Below, in pieces: positions 12,911 through 52,517 of a stretch of 64,000 bases of DNA. Below the pieces are notes generated by a model. The model saw only the letters and a list, made by a program, of their open reading frames with translations, was not told the origin of the DNA and did not search any database. The position numbers and the translations under genes are program-made. This DNA comes from an uncultured Clostridia bacterium (GTDB lineage Bacteria; Bacillota; Clostridia; Oscillospirales; Oscillospiraceae). The DNA lies in NCBI GenBank assembly GCA_945877365.1, contig CAMCRV010000008.1:1-64000 (forward strand), given 5' to 3'. Positions within the stretch are counted from its first letter, which is position 1. Each line of letters opens with the position of its first letter.

Positions 12911-13031
12911 GGCCCCCTTGTGTAAAGGGGGCTGTCACCGCATTGCGGTGACTGGGGGATTGACACTGCCGAGGTCAACCCCTCCGCCCCAGTGTGCGCA
13001 CTGGGGCACCTCCCCTTACACAGGGGAGGCT
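12911..13031. repeat. Palindromic repeat family 1, gene-free copy
   Basis: Outer arms CCCCCTTGTGTAAAGGGGG and CCTCCCCTTACACAGGGGAGG. The inner hairpins are GTCACCGCATTGCGGTGAC and GCCCCAGTGTGCGCACTGGGGC. It is placed between the transketolase stop and the terminator. Confidence 0.9.
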
Positions 13032-13090: not shown

Positions 13091-13130
13091 CAAAAATCGC
13101 TCTGTGGGGTTGCCCACAGAGCGATTTTTT
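13091..13130. terminator. Bidirectional terminator between converging operons
   Basis: Stem AAAATCGCTCTGTGGG / CCCACAGAGCGATTTT with A-run and T-run on both sides. It serves the transketolase operon (+) and the BlaI/BlaR-like operon (-). Confidence 0.9.
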
Positions 13131-13132
13131 AC

Positions 13133-16048
13133 TTATTCATGGAACTCACATTCGTACTCGTCCACTTTCCAGGTGCCGTTCTCCCGAACCAGAGACAGAT
13201 TCAGGTAATGGGTGCCGTTGCCCTGGCTGCTGTCCGTGAAGGGGACGGAGAGGTAGTAGTAACCATTTTGCTCCATGACCTGCCCCACGGGGCCGTAGAG
13301 GACAACGGAATCCTCAAGAATCTGAACACCCTCGGTGCTGCCTTCGTAGCTGGTGGCCTCCCAGGCCTGCAGCAGAGGCTCCGACATACAGGCACCCATG
13401 GTTTCGGTGTCGTTGGCAAAGAAAGCATAGGTGAACCTGACCACGGTGGCCTCCAGATTCTGGGCATCCAGCTCATCGGTGCCGGTGATGTCCTTTAACC
13501 AGTCCAGCCCGGAAATCTCAGTGGATTCCTCAGCCGCTGCTTCGGGGAACAGCACCTTGCCGTCCAGCGTGACATTGGAGCAGTCGATGAAGTTGGTGTC
13601 GTCGCCACCCAGATCCCGGAAGGTGCAGTTGTCAATGACCACATCCTTGGTGCTCCACATCTGGATGCCGCCGATGCTGCAATCGTAGATATCGCTGTTC
13701 AGAACCTTTACATCGCTGCAATAGTTGGTTTCCACACCCAGAATGCCGCAGCCGAACAGACCGCAGCTGTCCACGGTGATGCCGTCGGAGTCGTTGAAGT
13801 TCAGCACGCCGCCGGCGCAGCTGCCGGGAGCCTCGGTGTGACCGGCGGTGAAGCCGGAGACGGTGGTGTTGGTGCAGGCGCGGAAGGTGAGGACATTGGC
13901 ATACCGGGGGGTGACGGAGATGGTGTGCCCCTTGATATTGCCATCGTTGGAGCGGATGGTCAAGTTGTCCACATTCTGGATGATGAGGCCGGGGCCGTCA
14001 TAGATGTCCTCCCAGCAGTAGTAGTCCCCGGTGACGGTGCCGTAGCCCGTGGCCTTGTTGATTTCATACATCTCACCGGTGAGGATGATCTCGGTGTTGG
14101 GGGCGATGGCTGCCAGCAGCTCATCCACGGTGGCAACCTCCACCTGCTTCTGGGGCTGGGTGGGGTCGCTGGCCTGCACAGTGCCGAATCGCTTGGCAAG
14201 CCTTGCCTCGGTAAGGTTCGTGCCGGTTTCGTCCACAACCCAGTAGCAGTTGGGGGCATACCAGTTGCGGATGTTGTTGTCGGTGAAGGTGTTGTCGTCT
14301 TTCAGAAGCATATAGCCGTTTTGGTTGAAGGCACCGTTCTGAATCCGGTTGTTCTGGAAGGTATTGTTGAGAAGCTCAACGCTGGAATCGGTGCTGTCCA
14401 CCAGATACATCAGGGTGCTGTCGGACAGCAGGGAGTTTTTCACCACCACGCCGGAGGTCTGGGTTGCGGTGAGGTAGGTGTAGGCATTGTAGCCGTAGCC
14501 GTCGATGTGGTCAAAGGTGCACGCATCCATGGTGACGGTGTCGCAGCGGTACAGATCCACCGCGCTGCTGGAGCACTCGTAGATCCGGCACTGCTTCAGC
14601 TCCAGATTCCGGCAGCTTTCGGCATTGACACCCACCACGCCGCAGCCAAAGAGGCCCAGTCCATCCATCTGTGTGTTCCGGCAGTCGATGAGCTTCAGCA
14701 CGCCGCCGCAGCACTCGCCGGGCTTGTCCTTGGTGTGACCGGCGGTGAAGCCCGAGAGCGTCACATTGTCGCAGTTGTCCAGCGTGATGACATGAGCGTA
14801 CCGGGGTTCTGTCTCCAAAGTGGTGCTGTCCATGCCGCTGCCCCGGATGGTCAGGCCGTGGACGCTGTCCAGCTGCAATCCAAAGCCGTCATAGTCCTCT
14901 ACCCAGTGGTAGTAGAGACTGCCGCTCTGCTGGCCGTAATTGCTGGCATCGCAGAGGTTGTATGTACCGGGCAGCATGAGGATATCCGCGTTGGGGGCGA
15001 TGGCACCCAGCAGCTCGTCCACATTTCTCACTTCAATGGTTCCGGGGGTGGTGACCTCAAGGCTGGGGCCGTCCGAGGAGCCGGGGTTCAGCGCGCAGGC
15101 CGCCAGGGCGGCGATGAGCACCACTGCGGCGGTGATGATGACCCAGAATTTGGGCTGTTTCCAGTTAGCCATATTTTTGATGCGTCCTTTCGTGTCGCCC
15201 TCGCCGAAGGCAAGGGGTGTCAAAGCAATGGAGGGGTGGTGGGTGGACAGCCGCAGCAGGGATTCGGCGTAGAAGCTCCGAACCTGTGGGCCAAACCGGC
15301 GGATCACCGCCTCGTCACAGCTCATTTCCATATCCTTCCCCGACAGCCGGAAGGCCACCCACGCCAGTGGGTTGAACCAGTGCAGGCTCAGGGCGATGTA
15401 GGCCAGCAGCCGCACAACGGGATCTCTGCGCTGGATGTGGCAGGTCTCGTGAGCCAGAATGTAGGCCATTTCCGACTCTGCCAGCTGGGAGGGAAGGAAG
15501 ATTTTGGGGCGGAGGATGCCCAGCACAAAGGGGCCGGGGATGTGATCCGCCATGTAGATCCGCCGGGACAGCTTCACCGCACCCGTGAGCCTGCGGTGAA
15601 GAAGAAGCAGACTGACAAAGCTGTACACCAGCATCCCGGCAACCCCTGCCGCCCAAACAATCGCGGCGTAGTCCAGCAAACTTTTCTCAGGCTCCGGTGC
15701 TGCCTGAGGTTCTGCCGGTAAAATGACATTGGGGGTGTGGTTTTTCTGCGCCGTGAGGGTTTCCTCCGGAATCTGCACCTGCCGGGGCGTTTCCCGGGGG
15801 AGGTACTGCACACTGGATACATTGCCCTGCTGGGAAATTGCCGGGGGCTCCACAATGGTAAACAGAGAGAACATGGAGCTGAAGGACACCGGGCACAGCA
15901 GCCGGAACAGCACCACCGACCACAGAGCGTAGGAGAACACCTTGGGTGCCTTTTTCAGGAACAGCCGGGTGGCCAGCACAAAGAGAATCACCACGCTGCC
16001 GGTGAGGCTCATGTTGAGAATCGGGGAGAAGAGGCTTGTCAATGTCAT
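13133..16048 (-). CDS. BlaR1-like M56 metalloprotease fused to two beta-helix modules
   Basis: A 971-residue membrane protein. Residues 1-320 are an M56 peptidase domain: three early membrane spans, the zinc motif HETCH at 200-204, NPLAWVAFRLSGKDMEMSCDEA, and a fourth span at about 301-320. In BlaR1 and MecR1 the domain after this span is a penicillin-binding sensor. Here it is replaced by two homologous modules (about 335-620 and 640-850) rich in short turns such as NCDNVTLSGFTAGHT and ACTNTTVSGFTAGHT, typical of right-handed parallel beta-helices. A C-terminal alpha/beta domain (about 860-971, VVRFTYAFFANDTETM) follows. Beta-helices often bind or cut polysaccharide, so a surface-glycan sensor is plausible but inferred. 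GAGGGGGTAATTGCC precedes the ATG. It is co-transcribed with blaI, 5 bases apart. Confidence 0.88.
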   Translation of the reverse strand: MTLTSLFSPILNMSLTGSVVILFVLATRLFLKKAPKVFSYALWSVVLFRLLCPVSFSSMFSLFTIVEPPAISQQGNVSSVQYLPRETPRQVQIPEETLTAQKNHTPNVILPAEPQAAPEPEKSLLDYAAIVWAAGVAGMLVYSFVSLLLLHRRLTGAVKLSRRIYMADHIPGPFVLGILRPKIFLPSQLAESEMAYILAHETCHIQRRDPVVRLLAYIALSLHWFNPLAWVAFRLSGKDMEMSCDEAVIRRFGPQVRSFYAESLLRLSTHHPSIALTPLAFGEGDTKGRIKNMANWKQPKFWVIITAAVVLIAALAACALNPGSSDGPSLEVTTPGTIEVRNVDELLGAIAPNADILMLPGTYNLCDASNYGQQSGSLYYHWVEDYDGFGLQLDSVHGLTIRGSGMDSTTLETEPRYAHVITLDNCDNVTLSGFTAGHTKDKPGECCGGVLKLIDCRNTQMDGLGLFGCGVVGVNAESCRNLELKQCRIYECSSSAVDLYRCDTVTMDACTFDHIDGYGYNAYTYLTATQTSGVVVKNSLLSDSTLMYLVDSTDSSVELLNNTFQNNRIQNGAFNQNGYMLLKDDNTFTDNNIRNWYAPNCYWVVDETGTNLTEARLAKRFGTVQASDPTQPQKQVEVATVDELLAAIAPNTEIILTGEMYEINKATGYGTVTGDYYCWEDIYDGPGLIIQNVDNLTIRSNDGNIKGHTISVTPRYANVLTFRACTNTTVSGFTAGHTEAPGSCAGGVLNFNDSDGITVDSCGLFGCGILGVETNYCSDVKVLNSDIYDCSIGGIQMWSTKDVVIDNCTFRDLGGDDTNFIDCSNVTLDGKVLFPEAAAEESTEISGLDWLKDITGTDELDAQNLEATVVRFTYAFFANDTETMGACMSEPLLQAWEATSYEGSTEGVQILEDSVVLYGPVGQVMEQNGYYYLSVPFTDSSQGNGTHYLNLSLVRENGTWKVDEYECEFHE

Positions 16049-16053
16049 GGCAA

Positions 16054-16413
16054 TTACCCCCTCATGGCTTCGATGAGCGCCTGAAGCGCATCGATCTCGC
16101 TGTCGGACAGCTTCTTCTGGGAGGCGAAGGCTGCCACGAAGGCGGGAAGAGAGCCGGAGAAGGTCTCCTCCACAAACTGCTGGCTCTGCTTTGCCTCGAA
16201 TTCCTGCCGGGTCACCAGGGCTGTGACCATGCTGTCCTCCGTGCGGAACAGCCCCTTTTCACTGAGCTTTTTCAGCACGGTATAGGTGGTGGTGCGTTTC
16301 CAGCCCAGCTCCCGGGCGCATATCGCAATCAGCTGCGCGGTGGTCAGGGGAGCATTCTCCCAGATAATCTCCGCAAATCGGGTCTCAATGGGACCCAGCT
16401 TCCAATCTGCCAT
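16054..16413 (-). CDS. BlaI/MecI-family transcriptional repressor
   Basis: A 119-residue winged-helix repressor, the usual BlaI length. Typical segments are LGPIETRFAEIIWENAPLTT, the recognition-helix region WKRTTTYTVLKKLSEKGL, and a dimerising helical C-terminus (ALIEAMRG). It should repress its own operon until cleaved or displaced after signalling by the adjacent BlaR1-like protease. Two matching 17-bp dyads lie directly upstream. No beta-lactamase gene is nearby, so the regulon is probably not antibiotic resistance; target genes elsewhere cannot be excluded. Confidence 0.93.
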   Translation of the reverse strand: MADWKLGPIETRFAEIIWENAPLTTAQLIAICARELGWKRTTTYTVLKKLSEKGLFRTEDSMVTALVTRQEFEAKQSQQFVEETFSGSLPAFVAAFASQKKLSDSEIDALQALIEAMRG

Positions 16414-16431
16414 ATTCTTTCCTTCAATCGT

Positions 16432-16483
16432 GTCTATTTCCTATAGACAACCATAGTCTATCATCAATAGACATATTTGTCAA
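16432..16483 (-). promoter_or_regulatory. Promoter with two BlaI-type operators
   Basis: Minus-strand promoter TTGACA (16483-16478), 17-base spacer, TAGACT (16460-16455). Two dyads, GTCTAT-N5-ATAGAC at 16432-16448 and at 16456-16472, have centres 24 bp apart. The second covers the spacer and -10, and the first lies just downstream. This is the expected arrangement for cooperative repression by BlaI dimers. Confidence 0.85.
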
Positions 16484-16578: not shown

Positions 16579-16768
16579 GGCCCCCTTGTGTAAAGGGGGC
16601 TGTCAGCGAAGCTGACTGGGGGATTGACAACCCCTCCGGCAAAAATCAATAGATTTTTGCCACCTGATACATTTTGGTATGATTGCCACTGGCAATCATG
16701 GAGATTTTGATTCGCTGCGCGGAGCACAACCCCTTACACAGGGGAGGCTTTGGGCATCCCCACAAATA
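16579..16768. repeat. Palindromic repeat family 1, copy with about 70-bp insertion
   Basis: Starts GGCCCCCTTGTGTAAAGGGGG, then GTCAGCGAAGCTGAC and GGCAAAAATCAATAGATTTTTG. About 70 bp of foreign sequence then interrupts the final arm, before CCCCTTACACAGGGGAGG and GGGCATCCCCAC. Together with the operators and the terminator it accounts for the 16.41-16.95 kb gap; no gene is seen there. Confidence 0.85.
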
Positions 16769-52070: not shown

Positions 52071-52418
52071 TTAATTATCAGTCTGCATCCAATCTACTAA
52101 TACTGCATCCTCTATGTCAAAGTAATCGTTCATATTACTGCTAAATCCCGCCGCTTTCCATGCTCTTTCAAAGGGGATGTTTTCGATATTGCTCAAATAT
52201 GTAAATGTCGAATTTGTCTTAGCATTAGGCATAGTGCCTTTGATTACCAATCTATACTTGTATATTTGCCCATCGTATTCCCATGTGCCATCACTCAGTT
52301 CATAGTAGGTTTTCAAATTGCCTTCAATGGTTTTAGTGCGTTCGGGCGGCTGGTTGCCACATCCAACTAAGCCAAGTACACAAACTACCGCTAAAACTAA
52401 TGCTATCAGTTTTTTCAT
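52071..52418 (-). CDS. Small lipoprotein (115 aa), cassette gene 1
   Basis: Signal peptide MKKLIALVLAVVCVLGLVGC with a lipobox (LVGC); the mature part is about 96 residues (GNLKTYYELSDGTWEYDGQI, then YKYRLVIKGTMPNAKTN). The leader is AATTTGACAAAGGAGTGTGA TTCT ATG. Membrane-anchored small lipoproteins on mobile elements often act in immunity or exclusion; that is only a suggestion here. Confidence 0.75.
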   Translation of the reverse strand: MKKLIALVLAVVCVLGLVGCGNQPPERTKTIEGNLKTYYELSDGTWEYDGQIYKYRLVIKGTMPNAKTNSTFTYLSNIENIPFERAWKAAGFSSNMNDYFDIEDAVLVDWMQTDN

Positions 52419-52517
52419 AGAATCACACTCCTTTGTCAAATTCAAGTTTTGCGAATTGTTTGTATTTTTATTATAGCGGATTTGGCCTATTGCGTATAGA
52501 CCAAAATTGTAAAATTT

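Follow-up and report, generated by a model that had tools for sequence, protein, structure and literature searches.

Pairs of an M56 membrane protease and a BlaI-type repressor are known from antibiotic resistance. The operators of Staphylococcus BlaI/MecI are paired, and the bond cleaved in MecI/BlaI is N-F. According to two reports, the sensor domain of BlaR1 resembles class D beta-lactamases (PMC7593790, PMC9834060). For BlaI_0696 of Clostridium thermocellum, a DAP-seq study gives a motif of inverted GTCTAT repeats five nucleotides apart, with two motif matches needed per target and a regulon of three operons, its own included (PMC8457756). Here we describe a blaI–M56 operon in a 64,000-nucleotide stretch of DNA from an uncultured Clostridia bacterium (hereafter the window), whose receptor carries beta-helices at the position of the sensor. 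A search of the literature, covering published papers open without subscription, returned nothing on an M56 protein with a beta-helix ectodomain or on an operon of helix protein, blaI and M56.

The blaI–M56 operon and its beta-helix ectodomain

The operon consists of blaI and the M56 gene only, with blaI lying 5′ and a gap of five bases between them (Table 1). A terminator-like hairpin lies between the M56 gene and the convergent gene; the scan scored it on the + strand only, the stem itself being symmetric. The Pfam M56 match covers residues 10-292, the protease motif H200-E-T-C-H204 (HEXXH) is intact, and E241 and D245 also align to BlaR1. The last M56 membrane helix is placed by the model at residues 300-319. 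With 73.8 bits against a cut-off of 400 for the NCBIfam BlaR1 equivalog (NF000326), the receptor stays below the curated threshold for BlaR1, and no penicillin-binding, class D-like sensor domain was detected in it by Pfam at E values up to 1. The repressor aligns with MecI (1sd6) over residues 6-114 (E 6.4e-6). Identical copies of a dispersed repeat, in direct orientation and 3.7 kb apart (12913-12936 and 16581-16604), flank the operon. As this repeat occurs at 75 places of the genome at up to three mismatches (72 of them exact), we regard it as a weak sign of a cassette.

Table 1. Features of the blaI–M56 operon, in window coordinates
Feature	Position	Strand	Remarks
M56 receptor gene	13133..16048	-	971 aa ORF
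BlaI/MecI-type repressor gene	16054..16413	-	119 aa; PF03965 (Penicillinase_R) E 1.1e-23
M56 protease domain and membrane helices, residues 1-319	15092..16048	-	PF05569 E 1.3e-51; helices from model
Lipobox-like L315-A316-A317-C318	15095..15106	-	outer end of last M56 membrane helix
Beta-helix module 1 and linker, residues 335-630	14159..15046	-	PF13229, model
Beta-helix module 2, residues 631-840	13529..14158	-	model pTM 0.89; conserved H737, C744, C767, C790
Small C-terminal alpha/beta domain, residues 857-971	13136..13480	-	modelled secondary structure
Sigma-70-type promoter TTGACA-17-TAGACT	16455..16483	-	10/12 matches
Candidate BlaI operator 1	16456..16472	.	exact GTCTAT-N5-ATAGAC, overlaps -10
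Candidate BlaI operator 2	16432..16448	.	exact GTCTAT-N5-ATAGAC, between -10 and blaI start
Terminator-like hairpin	13092..13129	.	17-pair stem, directly 3′ of M56 gene

C-terminal to the M56 part, the receptor matches the Pfam family Beta_helix (E 4.4e-16), and in the structural models both modules are right-handed beta-helices. The full-length model reached a mean pLDDT of 79 and a pTM of 0.55, with 399 of the 971 residues at 90 or above and poorly modelled linkers; module 2 modelled alone from 58 sequences reached a pLDDT of 90. The small C-terminal domain was modelled poorly (means of 10-residue blocks about 35-77) and gave sub-threshold Pfam matches only (DUF3828, E 0.039; DUF4829, E 0.18); it may belong to the NTF2-like clan. 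A related domain, 31% identical over 121 residues, is present in another M56–helix fusion of the same genus (locus L054). Separately, L054 carries a C-terminal phosphodiester glycosidase domain (residues 1148-1309; PF09992, E 5.3e-30). Each helix module of the window receptor retains one His and three Cys, the cysteines being spaced 23 residues, or about one coil, apart. In module 2 all four are invariant in 58/58 rows, and they are retained in 22, 22, 19 and 23 of 24 distant rows.

Structural comparison of module 2 with VIA gave neighbours with Z scores of 14.6-17.8, deviations of 2.0-4.0 Å over 160-195 residues and identities of 8-20% (50 matches listed). By title, these were right-handed beta-helices, mostly glycan lyases, glycoside hydrolases, epimerases and phage tailspikes. 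Foldseek searches with module 2 likewise returned mostly carbohydrate-active neighbours, and those with the full-length receptor also returned cryo-EM chains of BlaR1. By sequence, no enzyme of known structure was close to the helix (best E 0.017). Since known structures with a right-handed beta-helix are for the most part glycan-active, such neighbours are weak evidence for glycan binding; the fold that module 2 has in common with these enzymes shows no function. Glycan or wall sensing by the modelled ectodomain is plausible, and its ligand would most likely be a glycan or another envelope polymer.

The first-pass annotation had read the locus as a BlaR1-type M56 protease retained with its BlaI partner and double operators, in which two beta-helices and a small C-terminal domain replace the beta-lactam sensor of a proteolytic switch. 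The two proteins, the intact protease motif, the paired sites and the make-up of the ectodomain were all confirmed by the data above and in Table 1, the C-terminal domain at the quality of its model. The proposal of a switch lacking a beta-lactam sensor gains support from the beta-helix fold and its mostly carbohydrate-active neighbours, and neither structure prediction nor Pfam points to a degenerate penicillin-binding domain.

Candidate operators and the search for a regulon

Within the blaI promoter, the starts of the two candidate operators are 24 bases apart. It is this adjoining pair of exact sites that is striking; the total count by itself is not, as four operator-like sites were found at up to two mismatches against a shuffle mean of 1.25, with 3 of 100 shuffles reaching four. 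Across the window genome (2.15 Mb in 61 contigs, 97.3% complete) no second operator pair was detected at up to two mismatches, so that autoregulation is the only regulation that can be supported. The operator search, suggested by the first-pass annotation as a way to define a regulon, hence yielded no further paired target. The same result bears on a beta-lactamase under the same operators, which that annotation had named as counter-evidence: within the same mismatch limit, no other pair was found under which a gene for a beta-lactamase or a PBP could stand; control of such a gene through more diverged sites or by an indirect route may occur.

A genome-wide regulon was rejected: at up to two mismatches the motif gave 28 places, 16 of which were a single dispersed 17-mer, and the reversed control pattern gave 104. 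Besides the repeat that flanks the operon, a second dispersed element, with GGTTATATAGAATAGAC, occupies 16 places in the window genome (G000) and resembles a repeat and not a set of operators. An isolated operator-like site with one mismatch (52485-52501) stands before the gene for a small lipoprotein (52071-52445, - strand). We do not claim it as a target: it is single, whereas BlaI_0696 requires pairs (PMC8457756), and by a rough estimate chance alone would give one to a few sites of this kind.

Four M56–BlaI pairs are encoded in the window genome, with operators differing between pairs. The promoters of the other three contain other double palindromes at similar positions. One of these, the C21 pair TCTAC-N5-GTAGA, was identified by eye; its sites resemble those of the window, and crosstalk between the two switches may therefore occur. 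The ectodomains of the other three M56 proteins gave no helix match and no transpeptidase hit, so that this one gut bacterium has four M56–BlaI pairs with no detected penicillin-binding ectodomain in any. Beside a fifth BlaI-like gene (C2) no M56 hit was found.

Fused and separate helices in relatives

A relative of the helix is present in 35/300 genomes of the family and in 33/136 genomes of the window genus. M56 and helix stand on one protein in 4 of the 29 family loci examined, the window's own excluded; five family genomes with a helix match gave no locus for examination. In the GTDB contig collection the window helix alone returned 0 matches, and the relatives were obtained with a helix alignment: 202 stretches encode them, and among the best 80, which were kept, 49 are fusions to M56 and 31 are not. 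Wherever the 5′ end of a fusion is intact (46/46), a BlaI gene lies at that side, the other three being cut there. Many fusions on a backbone other than that of the operon clade described below come, by their titles, from ruminant gut samples, and 41/44 of the promoters of such fusions contain two or more TACANNTGTA (up to one mismatch), with 0.18 expected. Within a few kb of the fusion operons no conserved neighbour was found: the largest cluster covers 8/80 loci, two of them fusions, and among the clusters listed the most fusion loci in any one is 4/49.

An M56 tree of 87 rows, built after thinning of the fusions at 65% identity, requires three changes of the helix label, all of them forced by well-supported branches; all trees were of the 'quick' type, without bootstrap. 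In AU tests, run after removal of four long-branch rows and on groups chosen after the data had been seen, a single M56 clade was rejected for all fusions (p-AU 7.5e-5), for all fusions minus the window's (p-AU 0.005) and for the window with the genus members L054 and L055 (genomes G385 and G377; p-AU 1.9e-11). On the helix tree, those three form a supported trio (98), nested in a group of 24 in which the remaining 21 rows lack M56. Related ectodomains thus appear on two M56 backbones within one genus. A further genus fusion counted here, L172, matches the helix weakly by Pfam. Judging from these trees, the same helix family is found on at least three M56 backbones. The counts of label changes would fit gain or loss alike, but the sister M56 proteins carry other ectodomains.

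In 20 loci of the genus, hand-picked and not random (as were some of the other loci) and chosen partly for a nearby M56, we found 12 co-directional arrangements of helix gene, blaI and M56, one fusion and seven with neither. Together with L087, this makes 13 distinct operons. The separate helix protein is encoded first, and most begin with a lipoprotein-type signal; in those of L213 and L215 a strict lipobox is absent from the first 60 residues. The M56 proteins of these operons have ectodomains of their own with no detected helix. Sites of the type GTTTAA-N4-TTAAAC (up to three mismatches) were present within 260 bases 5′ of the helix gene in 13/13 operons, and 11/13 had two or more, 28 or 29 bases apart, against 0.14-0.47 expected. 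The 130 bases 5′ of blaI inside the operons hold one weak site in all 13 loci together. Between operators and helix gene, an ORF of about 24 residues, membrane-peptide-like and similar in sequence, was noticed by eye in 3/13 operons (L210, L212, L214).

A single M56 clade of 14 sampled rows (support 99) unites 12 operon members with two fused proteins, L054 and L055; two further duplicates were removed, and the operon L074/L207 was left out as its M56 is cut. Since the clade mixes both arrangements, the helix is, in its sampled rows, either a separate gene behind operators or a part of the receptor. The switch of operon-type relatives likely has the helix protein as its output, and in the fused receptors the captured helix is likely the sensor; in the relatives, the captured sensor domain would thus probably be of the same family as the protein that the switch controls. 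As the M56 of the window falls outside the operon clade, this link between sensor and output holds for the relatives and not for the window. No free helix gene was found in the window genome, and the fused protein itself would therefore be the main output there. For 27 free helix genes outside M56 operons, a search of 260 bases at up to two mismatches showed no site of either type, GTTTAA-N4-TTAAAC or GTCTAT-N5-ATAGAC, which speaks against a general rule: the helix family serves other contexts too. The free helix surface proteins, the helix as first gene behind BlaI-type operators in the genus and the at least three backbones had not been part of the first-pass annotation.

Proposed switch and comparison with known systems

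We propose, with a probability of about 0.6, that blaI–M56 is an autoregulated two-gene switch that senses the cell surface. A pair of BlaI dimers on the two operators would repress blaI–M56. On meeting its ligand, the extracellular beta-helix ectodomain would pass a signal to the M56 protease at the inner face, and the activated protease would cut BlaI and so derepress the operon. This reading is limited by the window BlaI, which has A-F where MecI has N-F, and by the choice of operon loci partly for a nearby M56. A relic or degenerate beta-lactam receptor appears extremely improbable: the M56 and BlaI proteins are kin to BlaR1 and MecI, as it would predict, but the BlaR1 equivalog score falls far below its cut-off and the ectodomain is a beta-helix with no hit to a penicillin-binding domain. 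A rival to be taken more seriously, though we hold it to be rather unlikely, is that the ectodomain is a surface adhesin or enzyme, the helices being no sensor, and that M56–BlaI merely tunes its amount through sensing of a general envelope signal by the membrane helices. The separate helices in 19/20 of the hand-picked genus loci and in 31/80 of the best loci would fit this, as would operon M56 proteins that have helix-free ectodomains of their own yet stand behind a helix gene; it speaks against this rival that the helix is fused in the place of the sensor on three or more M56 backbones.

The lipobox-like LAAC of the window receptor follows a signal-like helix and allows for a receptor made as a polyprotein, in which the last M56 helix would double as the signal peptide of a lipoprotein, and lipidation and cleavage at C318 by Lgt and LspA would separate the ectodomain from the protease. 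In a survey that dropped two fusion loci with a cut M56 (L076, L084), a Cys close to the outer end of this helix was seen in 44/49 helix fusions and 43/60 other M56 proteins, a strict lipobox in 26/49 vs 14/60 and a relaxed one in 40/49 vs 21/60; two longer control stretches of the same 60 proteins contained a strict lipobox in 1/60 and 2/60. In a small local database, the starts of two free helix proteins, L128 (E 8e-21) and L131 (E 2e-13), also resembled the last M56 helix. Their signal peptides look like remnants of it, apparently through loss of the protease part, so that fission can probably turn an M56 helix into a signal peptide. Yet L054 and L055, the closest relatives of the cassette, have VAVC and no lipobox, even the relaxed motif is absent from nine of the 49 fusions, five have no Cys there, and an early cut would cost the protease its sensor. 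We consider such a polyprotein unlikely. More doubtful still is a wider scheme in which M56 receptors recruit a copy of the surface protein they control as their sensor, fusion and fission occur at the signal-peptide-like helix, some receptors are polyproteins that release the ectodomain, and the His and three Cys, one coil apart, form a ligand or metal site read in each module.

What is new is that M56–BlaI with a double helix recurs (49 of the best 80 of 202 loci), and that in relatives a helix of the same family is a separate surface protein in an operon apparently under such a switch. With that operon and the shared ectodomain, the free helix protein offers a direct route to the signal and output of orphan switches. 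BlaR1, whose sensor resembles a class D beta-lactamase, gives a parallel for the origin of a sensor in the family of the output, and whether such recruitment of a sensor from the output is a general rule becomes testable.

Among glycan enzymes, GH110, PL6 lyases, AlgE epimerases and the fucoidan lyase FdlA share the fold of module 2 (VIA Z 14.6-17.6), at 10-16% identity; unlike them, the window helix has a conserved His and Cys ladder and an attached signalling protease, and no catalytic site was identified in it. The BlaI_0696 regulon of C. thermocellum is alike in its motif of GTCTAT repeats, inverted at a spacing of five nucleotides, in the two matches per target and in the inclusion of its own operon; the study interprets that regulon as a beta-lactam response (PMC8457756), and the comparison with the window covers operators and regulon. 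With BlaR1/MecR1 and BlaI/MecI of Staphylococcus, the window pair shares a membrane M56 protease with HEXXH, a C-terminal ectodomain, a gene for a BlaI-type repressor and paired operators. It differs from the staphylococcal bla and mec systems in the operator and in an operon without a beta-lactamase gene, and where BlaR1/MecR1 has a class D beta-lactamase-like sensor, the window receptor has two beta-helices and a small domain.
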